A stretch of 27,631 nucleotides of DNA from the IMG/VR virus record IMGVR_UViG_3300042691_003342, positions 1 through 27,631 of that record; one strand, 5' to 3'. The position numbers were made by a program, and so were the translations under genes. This stretch comes from a virus. The notes under the pieces are model-generated. The model saw only the letters and a program-made list of their open reading frames with translations. It was not told where the DNA came from and made no database searches. This document shows, piece by piece, positions 13,031 to 27,631 of the stretch (its first letter is position 1; each line of letters opens with the position of its first letter).

Positions 13031-13381
13031 CTAATTAATGCCTGAGTTGCTATCCCCTGAGAGGTGCGTTTTAAGCCTGTGGCAGTTAGCACAGAGGGTT
13101 TGGAGGTTGGCTGGATCATTGTTAAAGCGGTCACCGTCTATGTGGTCTACATCCAACTGGCTGATATGTACTGGCTTGAAGTCACAGTGCTCGCAGTAAT
13201 CTTTACGGTGAGCGTGGTAAGGAGAACGTGCCTTCATCTGATTGATCTTGTAGATAGTATTACAACGGTACCTACCTGATACTGGCTTAGACTTATCTCG
13301 TATCTTTATTCTTGTGGGGCCACAAACTGAGCACAATCCTGTGCGTTCTTCTTCGTTAATCTCAGAGAGTTTGTGCTTCAT
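13031..13381 (-). CDS. HNH endonuclease
   Basis: A 116-residue protein whose C-terminal half is an HNH nuclease. It shows CEHCD (Cys63, Cys66), the DVDHIDGDRFNN core (His80 as general base), ANLQTLCANCH (Asn92, Cys97, Cys100, His101) and a trailing RLKT. Two more Cys in CSVC at residues 17-20 could form an extra zinc site. HNH enzymes in phages act in packaging or as free-standing homing endonucleases. The gene sits in a leftward island between late and replication modules, not beside the terminase, which favours a homing or mobile role. It overlaps the upstream zinc-ribbon gene by 20 bases and its Shine-Dalgarno is weak. Confidence 0.85.
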   Translation of the reverse strand: MKHKLSEINEEERTGLCSVCGPTRIKIRDKSKPVSGRYRCNTIYKINQMKARSPYHAHRKDYCEHCDFKPVHISQLDVDHIDGDRFNNDPANLQTLCANCHRLKTHLSGDSNSGIN

Positions 13382-13658
13382 CTTTATCTACTGGACAGGG
13401 AACAACTACTAGATTCCCACAGTTGACACAGGTTGCATCTAAGAAGTACCAGACCAGTTCGTAATCTTCAAAGGAACACATAACATTAAAGACTTGTGAG
13501 CCGCAGGGACAGACGTGTACTGGACCTAGACCTCGTAGATCAGAACCAAATTTATCTGGTAGTTTGTGCCTAAATTTCGGCAGCCTTGGTAGACGGAACC
13601 GCACAGTCAGTACTGCACCATCGTGCCCTTCTAGGGCACCCTGTTTTATTCGCCTCAC
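13362..13658 (-). CDS. Conserved phage zinc-ribbon protein
   Basis: A 98-residue protein starting at GTG 13658. It carries two Cys pairs, CPC at residues 50-52 and CVNC at 77-80, that should form a zinc ribbon around a GPVHVCPCGSQVFNVMCSF core. I recall similar small proteins in actinophages and other environmental phages but know of no function. The start is uncertain: a second in-frame GTG (residue 19) would give a shorter protein, but a TACAAT box seven bases before GTG 13658 fits leaderless initiation. Its first codons also span a small hairpin (13623-13639). Confidence 0.65.
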   Translation of the reverse strand: MRRIKQGALEGHDGAVLTVRFRLPRLPKFRHKLPDKFGSDLRGLGPVHVCPCGSQVFNVMCSFEDYELVWYFLDATCVNCGNLVVVPCPVDKDEAQTL

Positions 13659-13671
13659 GGCTCATATTGTA
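13656..13671 (-). promoter_or_regulatory. Leaderless-type -10 box for the zinc-ribbon gene
   Basis: On the minus strand TACAAT (13671-13666) is followed by seven bases and then GTG at 13658. A -10 box at this distance places transcription start at or next to the start codon, and there is no Shine-Dalgarno. Leaderless mRNAs are common in Actinobacteria. No clear -35 is visible. Confidence 0.5.
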
Positions 13672-13681
13672 GTAACTAGTA

Positions 13682-13702
13682 GTGTCGCTAACGCGACGAC
13701 AC
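13682..13702. promoter_or_regulatory. Inverted repeat between divergent promoters (candidate operator)
   Basis: GTGTCG (13682-13687) and CGACAC (13697-13702) form a dyad with a second nested one, GTCGC-TAAC-GCGAC (13684-13697). It lies between the two opposed -10 boxes, in the -35 region of both, where a single regulator could act on both genes. The same TGTCG half-site occurs in the palindrome at 13682 and at 23558. Confidence 0.45.
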
Positions 13703-13714
13703 GCCGATCTCTAG

Positions 13715-13728
13715 TATGATTCTACCTA
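13715..13728 (+). promoter_or_regulatory. Leaderless-type -10 box for the HslV-like gene
   Basis: TATGAT (13715-13720) is followed by seven bases and the ATG at 13728, the same geometry as on the opposite strand. The ATG at 13716 lies inside the box and is therefore an unlikely start. No Shine-Dalgarno precedes 13728. The -35 region has no clear match to TTGACA. Confidence 0.5.
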
Positions 13729-14285
13729 TGACAACAATCGCAGCGCTTGAGGGAATCGATTACGCTGTACTAGTAGCAGACTCACAGATCACAGAAGATA
13801 ATCTCGTGACACTTGCAACTAGTACACCCAAGATCGTTGAGGTAGGTAAGTACCTGATAGGTATCTCAGGGGACACAAGGCCAGGAGATATCCTTGCCTA
13901 TAACTGGAAGCCACCGTTGTATCGTGGCGAAGATCCAGCACAGTTTATGGGACGCAAGATCATTCCCAGTATTAACCAAGCATTTGCAGACAACAACTAC
14001 GACTACAACAAGGCGGACAAAGATGGTGGTTTCGATTATCTCATTGCTTTTAACGGCAATATCTTTCGTATTGCTTGTGATCTCTCTTTTTTCCAAGCAA
14101 ATCACGGAGCGTATGGCATTGGTAGTGGGGGTCAACTTGCTCTTGGCTACCTGTATTCAATTGTCAAACCTGATATGGAGTTAGCCTACGCCAAGCGACA
14201 CGCACGAAAGGCAGTAGAGATTGCATCAGTACTTGACGCGAACACTGGTAAGCCCATACAGTTAGTGGTCCAGGAAAGGATGTAA
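13728..14285 (+). CDS. HslV/proteasome-beta-like N-terminal-nucleophile hydrolase
   Basis: A 185-residue protein beginning MTTIAALEGIDYAVLVADSQ. Removal of Met by methionine aminopeptidase would expose Thr as nucleophile without a propeptide, as in HslV. In that numbering Thr1, Asp17, Lys34, Gly47, Ser132 (in GIGSGGQLALG) and Asp169 (in SVLDANTG) fall at or close to the classical proteasome beta positions Thr1, Asp17, Lys33, Gly47, Ser129 and Asp166. The C-terminal helix pair and strand (RKAVEIASVLDANTGKPIQL) also fit the fold. A peptidase assembled as a ring is expected of the family; whether it pairs with a host ATPase is unknown. An upstream in-frame ATG at 13716 adds four residues and would spoil the N-terminal Thr, so 13728 is chosen. 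The Cas4-like gene follows without a gap. Confidence 0.85.
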   Translation: MTTIAALEGIDYAVLVADSQITEDNLVTLATSTPKIVEVGKYLIGISGDTRPGDILAYNWKPPLYRGEDPAQFMGRKIIPSINQAFADNNYDYNKADKDGGFDYLIAFNGNIFRIACDLSFFQANHGAYGIGSGGQLALGYLYSIVKPDMELAYAKRHARKAVEIASVLDANTGKPIQLVVQERM

Positions 14286-15227
14286 ATGACAGACCCAAAG
14301 GAACTATTATTAACTGCACTTAAAGCAGGTGATGCAAAGCGTTCACGTTCTACACAGGTACAGATAGGACCATCAGAGTTAGGTGGTTGCCGTCGTAAGG
14401 TCTGGTATAGATTAAACGATCAGCCAGAGACTAACGAGAACGAGATGAAACTTGCTGCGATTATGGGTACTGCTATCCACGCAGAAATTGAAAGAGCACT
14501 AGCAGATAACCCAGATGTAATGATTGAAACATCGGTTGAGTACAACGGTATGAAGGCACACATTGACTGCTATGTACCAGGTACTGGTGATGTTATTGAC
14601 TGGAAGACAAGCAAGGTGAAGAATCTTAGTTACTTCCCATCGACACAGCAACGCTGGCAGGTACAGACATACGGTTACCTACTAGCAAAGAATGGCTACG
14701 ATGTAAAGCGCGTATCACTGGTTGCTATTGCACGTGATGGTGATGAGCGAGATGTCAAAGTACACACAGAACCTTACGATGAAACCATTGCACTACAGGC
14801 ATTGAACTGGTTGGAGGCTATCAAGGTGGCAGATACTGCACCAGATCCAGAACGTGATGCTTCTTATTGCAAACACTATTGCAAGTTCTATGACGCATCA
14901 GGTGAGATGGGATGCGTTGGTATAAAAAAAGAACTTACACCAGCAACTGACCTAGTAATTGATGATGCTGATATTGACAAGAATGCACTGCTGTACTTAC
15001 AGTTAGCAGCACAGATCAAGGTACTAGAGAAGGAACAAGATTCACTGAAGACTTCTTTTGAAGGACTGCTAGGAGTAACGCCTAGTGGAATAGAAGTCAG
15101 TTGGACAACTGTCAAGGGACGTGAAAGTATTGACAGTGAGGAAGTAGAAAAACTTATTGGGTATGTGCCTAAGAAGTTTGGTAATGAATCACAAAGGTTA
15201 TCAATCAGACAAACTGGAGGAAAGTAA
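14286..15227 (+). CDS. Cas4/RecB-like PD-(D/E)XK nuclease with Fe-S Cys set
   Basis: A 313-residue protein. The nuclease core has GTAIHAEIERAL (His65), AHIDCYVPGTGD (Asp94), VIDWKTSK (Asp105, Lys107) and a QVQTYGYLLA helix (Gln127, Tyr129), the order seen in Cas4 and RecB-family exonucleases. One N-terminal Cys (Cys35, in GGCRRKVW) and three later ones (Cys195, Cys199, Cys210) match the four-Cys pattern that holds a 4Fe-4S cluster in Cas4. It probably resects or processes DNA ends for recombination and replication. The last 100 residues are helical with a QLAAQIKVLEKEQDSLK coil. No cas1, cas2 or repeat array is nearby, so it is a phage recombination nuclease rather than a CRISPR gene. Confidence 0.85.
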   Translation: MTDPKELLLTALKAGDAKRSRSTQVQIGPSELGGCRRKVWYRLNDQPETNENEMKLAAIMGTAIHAEIERALADNPDVMIETSVEYNGMKAHIDCYVPGTGDVIDWKTSKVKNLSYFPSTQQRWQVQTYGYLLAKNGYDVKRVSLVAIARDGDERDVKVHTEPYDETIALQALNWLEAIKVADTAPDPERDASYCKHYCKFYDASGEMGCVGIKKELTPATDLVIDDADIDKNALLYLQLAAQIKVLEKEQDSLKTSFEGLLGVTPSGIEVSWTTVKGRESIDSEEVEKLIGYVPKKFGNESQRLSIRQTGGK

Positions 15228-15615: not shown

Positions 15616-15885
15616 ATGCGGGAGCCTCGTGAGTACGAGAACCCGCTATGTGCAGAGATAGGTGGTGACTTCTGGTTTCCTGATAAAGATAAGGAATCAG
15701 TAAGTTACATTGAAAGTCAGTATGCAAAGTCAATCTGTAAACGTTGTACTCATAGAACCGAATGCGCTGAGTGGGGAATCCATAAGGAACAGTTCGGTAT
15801 ATGGGGTGGGCTTGCACCACGTGAACGTCTTGCAGTAAGGAGACAACGCAGAATAAATCTTGGAGGGGATGGGGAAGTTGCTTAA
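15616..15885 (+). CDS. WhiB-family (Wbl) transcription factor
   Basis: An 89-residue protein with the full Wbl signature: Cys12, Cys41, Cys44 and Cys50 (C-X28-C-X2-C-X5-C) for a 4Fe-4S cluster, the GIWGG turn at residues 61-65, and a basic C-terminus (RLAVRRQRR) for DNA contact. Wbl proteins bind region 4 of the host primary sigma factor and alter promoter choice; phage copies such as that of mycobacteriophage TM4 can block host WhiB function. The family marks an actinobacterial host. It follows the zinc-ribbon gene by four bases and its 3' end overlaps the helicase start region. Confidence 0.93.
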   Translation: MREPREYENPLCAEIGGDFWFPDKDKESVSYIESQYAKSICKRCTHRTECAEWGIHKEQFGIWGGLAPRERLAVRRQRRINLGGDGEVA

Positions 15886-16693
15886 TCTAAAGCGGGCGAT
15901 GGGCGGTAGCCACACCAAGGCTATACCGTTGCCTGATGTATGGACTGGCCTTGCTGGTGAGTCCATTAAGTTTAGACGTGGGCAAGTATGTATGGTCGCC
16001 GCTGCACCTAATGCTGGTAAGAGTATGTTTGCTCTTGTCTATGCAATCAGGGCTAAGGTACCAACTCTTTTCTTTTCAGCCGATACTGATACTGCAACAG
16101 TGTTGATGCGGTCTGCAGCGCAGATCTCAGGGCACACGCAGTTAACCGTTGAGTCCAATATGGAATACAAGGAAGACTTCTACGGTGAACACCTATCAAA
16201 GATGTCACACATACAATGGGTATTCGATTCAAGTCCATCATTAGATGACATTGAATTGGAGATTAAAGCCTACGTTGAACTGTATGGAATAGCACCTGAG
16301 TTAATTATCATTGATAACTTAATGAATGTTGCTGCCGAAACAGACAATGAATGGGCAGGGCTACGTGCAATTATGATGGAGTTGCACGATATGGCACGCA
16401 AGACTCAGGCTTGCGTCTTAGTACTCCATCACGTCAGCGAGCAGAGTGAGTATGGATCACCGAGTATGCCACCACCGCGTCGTGCTATTCACGGTAAGGT
16501 CAGCCAGTTACCTGCGCTGATACTCACATTGGGTTATGACCCAGGTCAAGGGATGTTGCGTGTGGCTGCGGTGAAGAATCGCTTTGGTCCACACACAGCA
16601 GATGCCTCTAAATGGGCTACACTATTTGTTAACTTTGCAGCGTGCCAGATAGGAGATCAAGATGCACAAGGTAGGGCCTACTTACGTGTTTGA
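15869..16693 (+). CDS. DnaB/RecA-like replicative helicase ATPase
   Basis: A 274-residue protein with a RecA-type ATPase core: Walker A AAPNAGKSMF (about residues 45-54), Walker B ELIIIDNL (about 144-151) and an ACVLVLHHVSEQ strand with the sensor His. Only the motor domain is present, with no DnaB N-terminal domain, so it resembles compact phage helicases. It should load at the fork with the split primase downstream. The start is uncertain: TTG 15860, ATG 15869 and TTG 15878 are in frame and the GGAGGGG at 15862-15868 sits too near 15869 but well placed for 15878. It overlaps the WhiB gene. Confidence 0.8.
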   Translation: MGKLLNLKRAMGGSHTKAIPLPDVWTGLAGESIKFRRGQVCMVAAAPNAGKSMFALVYAIRAKVPTLFFSADTDTATVLMRSAAQISGHTQLTVESNMEYKEDFYGEHLSKMSHIQWVFDSSPSLDDIELEIKAYVELYGIAPELIIIDNLMNVAAETDNEWAGLRAIMMELHDMARKTQACVLVLHHVSEQSEYGSPSMPPPRRAIHGKVSQLPALILTLGYDPGQGMLRVAAVKNRFGPHTADASKWATLFVNFAACQIGDQDAQGRAYLRV

Positions 16694-16711: not shown

Positions 16712-17062
16712 ATGGCTAATCCCAATGGAAGAAAAGGTTCTCAGTTCGAGACAGATGTAATGAAATGGCTACGCAAATGCGGAGTTATGGCAGAACGTTT
16801 GACTAAGGCTGGGGCAAAAGATGAAGGGGATATGGTTGCGATCATCGCGGGGAAAACCTATATCCTTGAACTCAAGAACAGGGCAACCCTTTCCTTGCCT
16901 GAGTTCTGGAGAGAAGCAGAAGTTGAGGCGCTTAACTATGCCAATGCTCGTGGCCTTGGGGAAGTTCCACTGCATTACGTTGTAGTTAAGCGTCGCAACT
17001 CTGGAATAGAAAATGCCTGGGTCATTCAAGACCTAGCACAATGGATAAAGGAGAAACAATAA
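16712..17062 (+). CDS. Holliday-junction-resolvase-like PD-(D/E)XK nuclease
   Basis: A 116-residue protein with GSQFETDVMKWLRKCGV at the start (Glu13), a KAGAKDEGDMVA turn (Asp40) and the catalytic YILELKNR strand (Glu53, Lys55). This order matches small archaeal-type and phage Holliday junction resolvases of the PD-(D/E)XK class. It would resolve branched DNA before packaging. Length is normal for the family. Its TAA shares a base with the next ATG (17062). Confidence 0.75.
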   Translation: MANPNGRKGSQFETDVMKWLRKCGVMAERLTKAGAKDEGDMVAIIAGKTYILELKNRATLSLPEFWREAEVEALNYANARGLGEVPLHYVVVKRRNSGIENAWVIQDLAQWIKEKQ

Positions 17063-24012: not shown

Positions 24013-24232
24013 GTAAAACGATCCACTACTAGTTTTACGACCGATACTCGCTACGTTGGCACTACGCGAGTCCCCCTAGGACGAGCACCAACTTACCCCT
24101 CGCTGCGCTGTGGCTTGCTCGGGCGTCAAGCCCGACTGTGCGGTGCGTGGCACCGCTTTTAGTGGGGATAGTTCTATCTCCAGTATAGAGATCTTCCCCT
24201 CCAGTATAAAATTTTTTTCGCGCCTACGGCGC
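24013..24232 (+). other. Hairpin-dense leader upstream of the terminase gene
   Basis: No credible gene. At least six short stems follow one another: GTAAAAC/GTTTTAC (24013-24038), ACTCGC/GCGAGT (24046-24071), CGAGCA/TGCTCG (24082-24121), CGGGC/GCCCG (24120-24134), GCGGTG/CACCGC plus TTTT (24140-24160), GGGGATAG/CTATCTCC (24164-24181), and GCGCC/GGCGC (24220-24232). The exact repeat CTCCAGTATA occurs at 24178-24187 and 24199-24208, 21 bases apart. The block could be a packaging site, a structured RNA leader or an attenuator. Confidence 0.5.
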
Positions 24233-24250
24233 TCTACTAGAGGAGACTAC

Positions 24251-26110
24251 GTGGCTGAGAAGTCCAGTGACATCGCCAAGCGTCTGATCCTTTCAGGTGT
24301 AGCAGAAGGTCTAACTATCGAGGCAGCCACGGCTGCTGCTGGTAAATCCTATAAGACCTACGAGTACTACCGTCGCACAGACAAGATCTTTGCTGACAAG
24401 ATGGACCGAACAAGACTAGGTTTGAAGGATAAGAACTTCGCCTCATCCGATGTCCACGACTTAACCTTTGCCGAGTTTCGCCAGCGCTACCTACACTCTC
24501 AGACCTTTGCTCACCAGCAGAACCTGATCGATGTGATTGAGGGGCGTGAACCTTCCTGGCTACATCCCAGTATGAAGTACGAACCAGGTCTGGCGTCAAA
24601 CCGTATCCTTGTTAATATCCCGCCCAACCACGCCAAGTCGATGACGGTCACTATCGATTACGTCACCTGGCAGGTTTGTCAGAACCCTAACTTTCGTGTG
24701 CTGATTGTCTCTCAGACTCAGCAACTAGCAGCAGACTTTCTCTACGCCATCAAGCAACGCCTGACACATCCTAACTATGAAGCACTGCAACAGGCTTACG
24801 CTGCTGGCGTAGGGTTTAACTCTAAGACCGCCTCTTGGCAGGCTACCCGCGTTACCTTTGGTGATGAACTCAGAGAGTCATCTGAAAAGGACCCAAACAT
24901 CGAAGCCGTCGGTATCGGCGGTCAGATCTACGGTAAGCGTGCAGATATGATTATCGTAGACGATGCGGTGACATTAAAGAACGCAAACGAGTTTGAGAAA
25001 CAGATCCGTTGGTTAACCCAGGATGTGCGTTCTCGTCTTAACCCTACTGGTAAGTTAATCATTATCGGTACCCGCGTTACAGCAATTGATCTTTACAAAG
25101 AACTACGTTCCGAGGACCGCTACCCAGGTGGCCTTGTACCTTGGAAGTACCTGGCTATGCCAGCATTGCTTGAGACACACGAAGACCCCGACAAGTGGGT
25201 TACCCTGTGGCCCGCAAGTGATGCTCCCTTTGATGGGCAGATGGAATCTGATAAGAACGAAGATGGACTTTACCCCCGCTGGAATGGTCGTAACCTTTAC
25301 AACGAACGTCAAGCAATGGATGCATCTACTTGGGCGCTGGTCTACCAGCAACAAGATATCTCCGATGATGCAATCTTTGACCCAGTATGTGTGAGAGGTT
25401 CTATCGATGGTATGCGTAAAGCAGGTCGCCTTGTTCCTGGTCACCCAGGTCATCCGCGTGACCTTAGCGGCTTTTCTATTATTTGTGGTCTTGATCCCGC
25501 TATGGTTGGTGATACAGCCGTCGTTTGCTACGCTATCGATAGGACTAGTCACAAACGTTATATCGTTGATGCTATTAAGATCACTAGGCCTACGCCTGCT
25601 GCAATCCGTCAAATAATCTTTGACTGGACTGCGCTATACCAGCCTACCGAGTGGATAGTGGAGAAGAATGCCTTCCAATCATTCCTTACTCAAGATGAGG
25701 GTATTCGACAGAATCTGGCCTCGCGGGGTGTGTTACTGCGAGAGCACCACACAGGTAGCAACAAATGGGACTCAGGCTTCGGTGTTGCATCAATGTCAAC
25801 TTTGTTCGGCACCAAGCAACACGACGGTAAGCACCACAGAGACAACCTTATTCACTTACCTTCTGACCAAACTGAAAACATTAAGGCGCTCATCGAGCAA
25901 CTAATTACCTGGTCGCCTACTACTAAAGGTAAGACCGATATGGTGATGGCGTTGTGGTTCTGTGAAATCAGAGCACGTGAGATGCTCAACCAAGGTATGC
26001 ACAAGACACACCATATGAAGAATCCATTCCTGTCTCGTAGTGAGATAGGCAAACGAACAGTTATCAACATAGATGAACTGCTCGCAGAAAAAGATCGTAC
26101 GTTCATCTAA
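24251..26110 (+). CDS. terL: Terminase large subunit with N-terminal helix-turn-helix
   Basis: A 619-residue packaging motor. GTG 24251 is chosen because AGAGGAG stands just upstream; the frame extends to 24110 but through the hairpin leader with no ribosome site. Residues about 5-55 (KRLILSGVAEGLTIEAATAA, then KTYEYYRRTD) look like the helix-turn-helix of small terminases. The ATPase follows: deviant Walker A IPPNHAKSM (about 123-131), Walker B MIIVDD (233-238) and coupling motif IIGTR (271-275). The RNase H-like nuclease has GLDP (Asp415), IVEKN (Glu471) and KTDMVMAL (Asp563). It translocates DNA into the prohead and cuts it. No separate small terminase is visible. Confidence 0.95.
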   Translation: MAEKSSDIAKRLILSGVAEGLTIEAATAAAGKSYKTYEYYRRTDKIFADKMDRTRLGLKDKNFASSDVHDLTFAEFRQRYLHSQTFAHQQNLIDVIEGREPSWLHPSMKYEPGLASNRILVNIPPNHAKSMTVTIDYVTWQVCQNPNFRVLIVSQTQQLAADFLYAIKQRLTHPNYEALQQAYAAGVGFNSKTASWQATRVTFGDELRESSEKDPNIEAVGIGGQIYGKRADMIIVDDAVTLKNANEFEKQIRWLTQDVRSRLNPTGKLIIIGTRVTAIDLYKELRSEDRYPGGLVPWKYLAMPALLETHEDPDKWVTLWPASDAPFDGQMESDKNEDGLYPRWNGRNLYNERQAMDASTWALVYQQQDISDDAIFDPVCVRGSIDGMRKAGRLVPGHPGHPRDLSGFSIICGLDPAMVGDTAVVCYAIDRTSHKRYIVDAIKITRPTPAAIRQIIFDWTALYQPTEWIVEKNAFQSFLTQDEGIRQNLASRGVLLREHHTGSNKWDSGFGVASMSTLFGTKQHDGKHHRDNLIHLPSDQTENIKALIEQLITWSPTTKGKTDMVMALWFCEIRAREMLNQGMHKTHHMKNPFLSRSEIGKRTVINIDELLAEKDRTFI

Positions 26111-27180: not shown

Positions 27181-27631
27181 TTGTTATCAACTAAAGAGGT
27201 AGTAGCCAAGGTTAATCGCCTACAGACGCGCTACTCCGCACGTGACCAGAGAATGCGTGATGTGCTCTCTGTACGTCAGGGAGACATTAGCAAGGTTTAC
27301 CCTGCAATGTTTTCAGAGGAGTACCCAAAGCCTCTAGTTGCTAACTTCATTGACGTAGCAGCACGTGACCTTGCAGAAGCAATGGCACCGCTACCATCAT
27401 TTAACTGCGCTGCAACCAATATGGTTTCAGACTCAGCACGCAAGGCTGCAGATACTCGTACTCGTATTGTTAACCATTACATCAGTGCATCTGAACTACA
27501 AATTCAAATGTACACAGGTGCTGACTGGTTTAATACCTACGGTATGTTGCCAGGTATGGTGGAGATGGACTATGAAACCAATAATCCGAGAATACGTCTG
27601 CTTAATCCTTTTGGTACTTATCCTGAAATTG
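27181..27631 (+). CDS. Portal protein, N-terminal part (runs off the window)
   Basis: An open frame from TTG 27181, after AGGA at 27171-27174, continues to the right edge without a stop (150 codons). It begins LLSTKEVVAKVNRLQTRYSA and has a YPKPLVANFIDVAARDLAEA helix and a NNPRIRLLNPFGTYPEI segment, typical of phage portal N-terminal regions. The portal forms the ring at one head vertex through which DNA enters and leaves. Its position after the terminase fits normal phage order. The exact family cannot be fixed from this fragment. Confidence 0.8.
   Translation, partial: MLSTKEVVAKVNRLQTRYSARDQRMRDVLSVRQGDISKVYPAMFSEEYPKPLVANFIDVAARDLAEAMAPLPSFNCAATNMVSDSARKAADTRTRIVNHYISASELQIQMYTGADWFNTYGMLPGMVEMDYETNNPRIRLLNPFGTYPEI

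Follow-up and report, generated by a model that had tools for sequence, protein, structure and literature searches.

A proteasome-like N-terminal-threonine peptidase of freshwater actinophages: a putative exchangeable accessory enzyme in probable phages of 'Ca. Nanopelagicales'

Proteasome homologues are already known from phages as members of the families PPH (phage/host proteasome homologue) and AAH, and the consulted sections of the survey covering them speak of 'limited clues' to the function of the phage homologues (PMC8665760). According to those sections AAH is a group I homologue of compact build, with neither propeptide nor C-terminal extension, a Thr1/Asp17/Lys33/Gly47 set and known phage members, PPH is smaller, at about 140 residues, and is without helix H2, and no Actinobacteria-specific phage with AAH was found. 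HslV (ClpQ), whose name annotators give to phage members, pairs with HslU, and a Salmonella jumbo phage is described, in the part of the source available to us, as having HslV without HslU (PMC7823757). Annotations of phage-borne members also exist for DSL-LC01, Pumpernickel and others; the accessible portion of the DSL-LC01 main text uses none of the words HslV, protease or proteasome (PMC10611076). The first phages of 'Ca. Nanopelagicales' to be brought into culture are Planktophila phages E7 and F5, isolated on strain LanE-43, and the main text describing them includes genes degrading host proteins among those annotated and does not mention a proteasome- or HslV-like gene (PMC10202952). A literature search covering few subscription journals found no functional study of a phage-borne proteasome homologue.

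The homologue described here lies in a viral DNA of 27,631 nucleotides (IMG/VR record IMGVR_UViG_3300042691_003342), the whole of which we call the window (Table 1). Its large terminase subunit is 46% identical over 607 aa to that of Planktophila phage F5, its helicase 42% and its primase 38%; other genes are also held in common, and a sigma factor is encoded as well. The first-pass annotation, made from the sequence alone, had taken the DNA for that of an actinobacterial phage, and the WhiB-like regulator together with the genes shared with the Planktophila phages bears this out. These affinities indicate that the phage probably infects 'Ca. Nanopelagicales', very common freshwater bacteria. 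F5 (LanE43-AprF5) and E7 (LanE43-AprE7) each carry a homologue of the peptidase. The window further encodes a collagen-like repeat protein (1943-2986) that matches collagen-like adhesin models below their cut-offs; for E7 and F5, collagen-like proteins are reported from a variable island.

Table 1. Features of the window discussed in the text
Feature	Position	Strand	Evidence or remark
Divergent gene, 98 aa, no Pfam family	13362..13658	-	homologue divergently upstream in 82/88 window-type loci
Palindrome GTCGC/GCGAC between divergent genes	13684..13697	.	likely operator or promoter element
-10-like TATGAT of a likely leaderless promoter	13715..13720	+	sequence; ends 7 nt before ATG
Proteasome-like N-terminal-threonine peptidase gene, 185 aa	13728..14285	+	PF00227, phrog_1040, AlphaFold, Z 19-20
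Thr2 codon, predicted catalytic Thr1 once Met is removed	13731..13733	+	T in 197/197; structural alignment register
Cas4-like PD-(D/E)XK exonuclease, next in operon	14286..15227	+	PF01930 2.3e-8, PF12705 1.1e-7; phrog_1674 exonuclease 3e-30
WhiB-like regulator, actinophage marker	15616..15885	+	PF02467 1.2e-13
DnaB-like replicative helicase, same operon	15860..16693	+	phrog_243 5e-71
Terminase large subunit, tie to Planktophila phages F5 and E7	24110..26110	+	phrog_38 9.3e-66
Portal gene start, truncated at window end	27181..27631	+	matching longer record G001

The program-made list of open reading frames starts the peptidase gene at 13716, giving 189 aa. A start at 13728 is likelier because the relatives begin with MTTI and the stretch upstream of this point is promoter-like and of variable length among them. 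The resulting N-terminus reads MTTIAALEG, and loss of its Met would likely leave a Thr in the terminal position; this Thr directly follows the start codon in 197/197 relatives, in agreement with the earlier suggestion that no propeptide is needed. In the numbering of the mature protein, without Met, the residues of interest are Thr1, Asp17, Lys34, Gly47, Ser132 and Asp169, corresponding to T2, D18, K35, G48, Ser133 and Asp170 of the translated gene. When the protein was shuffled, T2, D18, K35 and G48 co-occurred in 4 of 200,000 shuffles.

The protein matches the Pfam Proteasome family (PF00227) with an E-value of 3.2e-11 and 43.7 bits, above the gathering cut-off of 22.4, its gene being the sole such match in the 27.6-kb window record, which is a fragment, and it matches PHROG 1040, 'peptidase HslV family', with an E-value of 1.8e-27. 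An AlphaFold model built from 19 sequences (mean pLDDT 87.5, pTM 0.84) has strands and four helices (51-59, 70-88, 135-145 and 152-169) in proteasome order and ends in a strand at 178-183, with no S12/H5. Against solved structures Foldseek places BPH at the top (TM 0.76), followed by HslV and 20S beta. With VIA-align the 20S beta and BPH chains give Z 19-20 at rmsd 2.5-3.4, among them a 20S core-particle chain, 7tej (Z 20.2, rmsd 2.9, 151 aligned), and BPH 5ovt (Z 19.7, rmsd 2.8, 172 aligned, 25% identity); residue 2 of the model falls on chain residue 1 in BPH and in most of the beta alignments. Viral structure models give 41 matches at E <= 0.001; a protein of a Gordonia phage and a 'proteasome subunit beta' of a Caulobacter phage are among them. 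The model thus supports a proteasome-type alpha-beta-beta-alpha fold, and the sandwich expected from comparison with HslV and proteasome beta is found, with Z about 20 to 20S beta. Pfam, PHROG, fold and residue invariance agree with the first-pass identification of a proteasome/HslV-like peptidase with intact Thr1, Asp17 and Lys34.

The proposed kinship with HslV holds for the fold and the nucleophile and fails for HslV proper, whose NCBIfam models score 19.0 bits against a cut-off of 137 (NF003964) and 18.1 against 157.75 (TIGR03692). Archaeal proteasome beta is likewise rejected (TIGR03634, 30.2 bits against 224), and the best phmmer match to solved proteasome beta chains has an E-value of 0.08. 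BPH (PDB 5ovs, 5ovt and 5ovu) represents the nearest solved structures by both Foldseek and phmmer, at 21-25% identity, but the sequence match is weak (phmmer E 0.013) and BPH is cellular, whereas the window protein is phage-borne. PPH is likewise phage-borne, of group I and endowed with the same catalytic triad, but identity with it is ruled out by the 185 residues and the four modelled helices, H2 among them; four unlabelled phage proteins that appear PPH-like on inspection (L086-L089) branch apart from the window protein in the tree. Two of these, L087 and L089, relatives from Pseudoalteromonas and Vibrio phages, continue far beyond the peptidase domain at their C-termini (total lengths 388 and 288 aa) and are encoded near PhoH and ribonucleotide reductase genes. 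With AAH the window protein shares the compact group I build, the want of a propeptide and the Thr1/Asp17/Lys/Gly47 set; four helices, no S12/H5 and no propeptide are features that other group I members have likewise. Judged from size and build, its closest fit is among the group I proteasome homologues published in 2021, as an AAH-like protein. A tblastn search of plasmids with the peptidase gave just weak Rhizobium and Paraburkholderia matches in 10 records, a scan of proteins from genome contigs confirmed no cellular relative, and PADLOC returned no match for the peptidase.

T2, D18 and K35 are kept in 150/150 distinct proteins drawn from 219 loci, three of them in the window's own record. 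They are equally invariant in a wider set of 197 distinct relatives, to which further loci had been added and from which proteins shorter than 165 aa were dropped before counting. G48 is kept in 193/197, the four exceptions being phage proteins of MTCI type. The two remaining residues vary: mature position 132 is S in 166/197 and T in 28/197, and position 169 is D in 121/197, N in 40, T in 27, S in 8 and V in 1. Consequently Ser132 and Asp169 are weaker evidence than the first reading implied; of the catalytic set it listed, Thr1, Asp17 and Lys34 stand, and their conservation in close phage homologues, on which it had made its proposal depend, is complete. Among 87 distinct close genes the median dN/dS is 0.076 and the maximum 0.19 (3723 of 3741 pairs, limited to dS >0.1), which shows the protein to be under purifying selection. 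Scanning IMG/VR with the window protein gave at least 590 stretches encoding a relative among at least 599 candidates, and with the F5 protein 199 among 235. The enzyme type is common here and strictly conserved at its active site.

In the window the peptidase gene follows a divergent gene, and the exonuclease gene begins at the very next base after its stop codon. That it heads a rightward replication operon, as first proposed, is correct for the window phage, with its divergent gene upstream, but does not extend to the cultured relatives, in which it follows the portal gene. A -10 hexamer just before the ATG is the layout of a leaderless actinobacterial promoter. Among 77 distinct upstream sequences of close relatives a TANNNT hexamer occurs at the exact TATGAT spacing in 42; 35 differ, some of them by a shift of merely one base. 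The palindrome, in the form GTYGC..GCRAC, recurs in 71 of the 77, with a paired change to GTTGC/GCAAC in seven, and probably serves the two divergent genes as an operator or promoter element. The intergenic region 13659-13727, which also contains the well-conserved string TTCGCCTCACGGCTCATATTGTA, is likely an early control region of such phages. Given the promoter layout and the conserved palindrome, the peptidase of the window clade is probably switched on together with the exonuclease, WhiB and helicase genes. In two close relatives (L042 and L045) the gene starts with TTG and the sequence before it is quite different, so that the promoter-like region is missing. Also nearby, an HNH endonuclease gene (13031-13381, minus strand; PF01844 2.2e-6) lies beside the 98-aa gene, and 16712-17062 in the replication operon gives a weak match, below cut-offs, to Hjc-type Holliday junction resolvases.

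The gene occupies two different sites. Among 171 distinct loci, the portal gene lies directly upstream in 73, the window arrangement (the divergent 98-aa gene upstream and/or the exonuclease downstream, with some loci cut by contig ends) is present in 88, and 10 show neither. In F5, TerL is separated from the portal by two small genes; the peptidase comes directly after the portal, and behind it lie three small genes, a protein of 1711 aa, another two genes, a scaffold-like protein and MCP. In G001, the longer record matching the window, small genes and a protein of 1611 aa come after the portal, and no peptidase follows it. Loci gathered with the window-type portal as seed have no peptidase there (0/80, 61 of them with more than 1 kb downstream of the portal). 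When whole records from this set were searched the peptidase was present in 13 of 25, namely in 6/6 records of at least 36 kb and in seven shorter ones, three of which show a contig-end piece only; the 12 others are fragments of 15.7-25.9 kb. In three of the six long records (G024-G026) this replication slot is filled by versions about 60% identical. With the F5 portal as seed, by contrast, the peptidase directly follows the portal in 68 of 80 loci and is absent from 12, two of these being too short to tell. The other 10 F5-type records (5.8-39.9 kb) have no peptidase match at E <= 0.001, bearer controls being positive in 7/7. Two of the non-bearers, G040 (39.9 kb) and G045 (37.5 kb), have about the length of F5 (38.9 kb), and 33 ORFs of G040 match G045 at 90% or more. 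Compared with these two, the bearer G050 is 97% identical in MCP, 87-88% in the portal and 83-85% in the scaffold-like protein.

Portal and peptidase are both long enough for comparison in 62 of the 68 bearer loci; there the portals are at least 81% identical, and the peptidases form four groups of 38, 15, 5 and 4 members with no between-group link at 50% identity. As four types of peptidase, or none, can thus follow the portal while the MCP is 97% identical regardless, an exchangeable accessory peptidase is likelier than an obligate capsid protease. Such swapping would be in keeping with accessory genes exposed to shifting pressure from the host. In the tree the replication-slot forms are a single clade (100/99) joined to the portal-slot forms through L350, and the direction of the move between slots is unsure because this join is flagged as a possible long-branch effect. 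A coupling of the peptidase to the type of a large head-module protein was considered and dropped, the post-portal bearers having either type. The large protein itself, of 1.6-1.9 thousand residues between portal and scaffold (L083 19470-24605, L397 8452-14085, G001), is strongly variable: G040 and G045 share 24% identity in it with portals 97% identical, yet it is 79-88% identical among some F5-type phages. A PHROG of unknown function is all that the F5 copy matches, and the two copies scanned gave no confident Pfam family. The protein may lie within an 8-kb island in which E7 and F5 are reported to differ and is possibly an ejected internal protein.

Taken together, we favor an AAH-like group I enzyme, a compact N-terminal-threonine peptidase with no propeptide, whose gene is an exchangeable accessory of probable 'Ca. 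Nanopelagicales' phages and which forms its own ring and acts in the takeover phase, a reading to which we give a probability of roughly 0.55. Host methionine aminopeptidase would strip Met1, Thr being a permitted second residue for Met removal, and the exposed Thr1, with Asp17, Lys34 and the oxyanion hole at Gly47, would attack peptide bonds by the chemistry expected of the fold. The peptidase probably forms a ring of its own kind that would cleave unfolded or loosely folded proteins and either need no dedicated ATPase or use an unfoldase of the host. In the window phage it would be transcribed from the head of the replication operon, which makes action during host takeover and genome replication most likely, with host or phage proteins being turned over. 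In F5 relatives it is instead placed among the head genes, a position that better fits a late or virion role and so speaks against early takeover. Also against this reading, the presence of the gene in all six portal-seeded window-clade records of at least 36 kb makes it look less dispensable than an accessory gene, and 76/197 relatives have a residue other than D at position 169, which belongs to the extended catalytic set. The model of an F5-type protein (L139, pLDDT 88.5) keeps the fold, again with BPH as top match, with helix H4 shortened to 11 residues from 18. H3 and H4 hold the main contacts between beta rings in proteasomes, as stated in the consulted part of PMC8665760, so assembly may differ between the types.

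The choice among other readings turns on partners and on genomic position. Prohead proteases usually occupy the slot directly after the portal, which is where the F5-type peptidase sits (73/171 distinct loci, 68/80 portal-seeded loci), and among 16 records the S78 prohead protease is matched in DSL-LC01 alone and ClpP in none, so that the 15 small genomes lack a match to either; an N-terminal-nucleophile enzyme might then mature capsid or virion proteins in their stead. This is nevertheless unlikely, since G040 and G045 do without the peptidase although their MCP is 97% identical to that of a bearer, the window-clade gene lies at a distance from the head genes and is linked to those for replication, and DSL-LC01 carries both a proteasome-like enzyme and the S78 match. 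A prohead protease should be present wherever its cognate head proteins occur, and G040 and G045 break this rule; they may have a replacement protease, for which a Pfam search of two proteins from each yielded a LysM domain in one and nothing else. That the peptidase docks on a host unfoldase and redirects host protein degradation is unlikely to a similar degree. The earlier statement that no ATPase partner is encoded nearby holds, an HslU/ClpX-type AAA_2 domain (PF07724) being matched in 0/18 related phage records, unlike the HslV-HslU pairing, and the Salmonella jumbo phage with HslV and no HslU offers a parallel (PMC7823757, as far as seen); against docking, no co-occurring AAA+ partner was found for the new homologues in the sections of PMC8665760 available. 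The generic AAA domain (PF00004) is matched in 8 of the 18 records by proteins that on inspection appear RecA/DnaB-like (F5-type) or a CobS/MoxR-like ATPase (DSL-LC01), and these were rejected as an HslU/Mpa partner.

The fold and nucleophile might also have been kept for other chemistry, as in a site-specific ligase, amidase or transpeptidase. The family includes a protein ligase, connectase (PMC8665760, consulted in part), and both the variation at Asp169 and the short H4 of the F5 type would suit such a change; however, the two-helix insertion that connectase has between S3 and S4 is absent from the model and, of the solved folds, those of BPH, HslV and 20S beta come closest, which leaves this reading distinctly improbable. 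Interference with a host proteasome, which the first-pass annotation had raised, for instance by mixing into its 20S rings, has in its favor only the general point that many Actinobacteria have proteasomes, and the low similarity to solved proteasome beta chains makes it hardly credible.

The enzyme type itself was already known from phages; the present analysis shows its commonness, its strict active site and its exchange at two genome sites. The homologues of F5, E7 and DSL-LC01 are 30-36% identical to the window protein, and gp135 of Microbacterium phage Pumpernickel ('protease') is 34% identical to that of F5 and unmatched by the window protein itself. Their sites differ: after the portal in E7 and F5, beside whiB in DSL-LC01 and after thyX in Pumpernickel. 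The AAH survey had no Actinobacteria-specific phage, in contrast to the present actinophage carrier of a putative AAH, and these phages probably fill that gap as actinophages encoding a protein of the AAH kind. It is conceivable, if doubtful, that such swappable, fast-diversifying and self-compartmentalising peptidases, whether post-portal or at an operon head, serve as an unfoldase-independent takeover weapon whose types track host proteins or defences. If so, some of the commonest freshwater phages would carry an ATP-free class of 'viral proteasome'. The homologue is now tied to a group of which two phages, and a host for them, are in culture; with these, and with near-identical head proteins accompanied or unaccompanied by the gene, the role of a viral proteasome homologue becomes directly testable.
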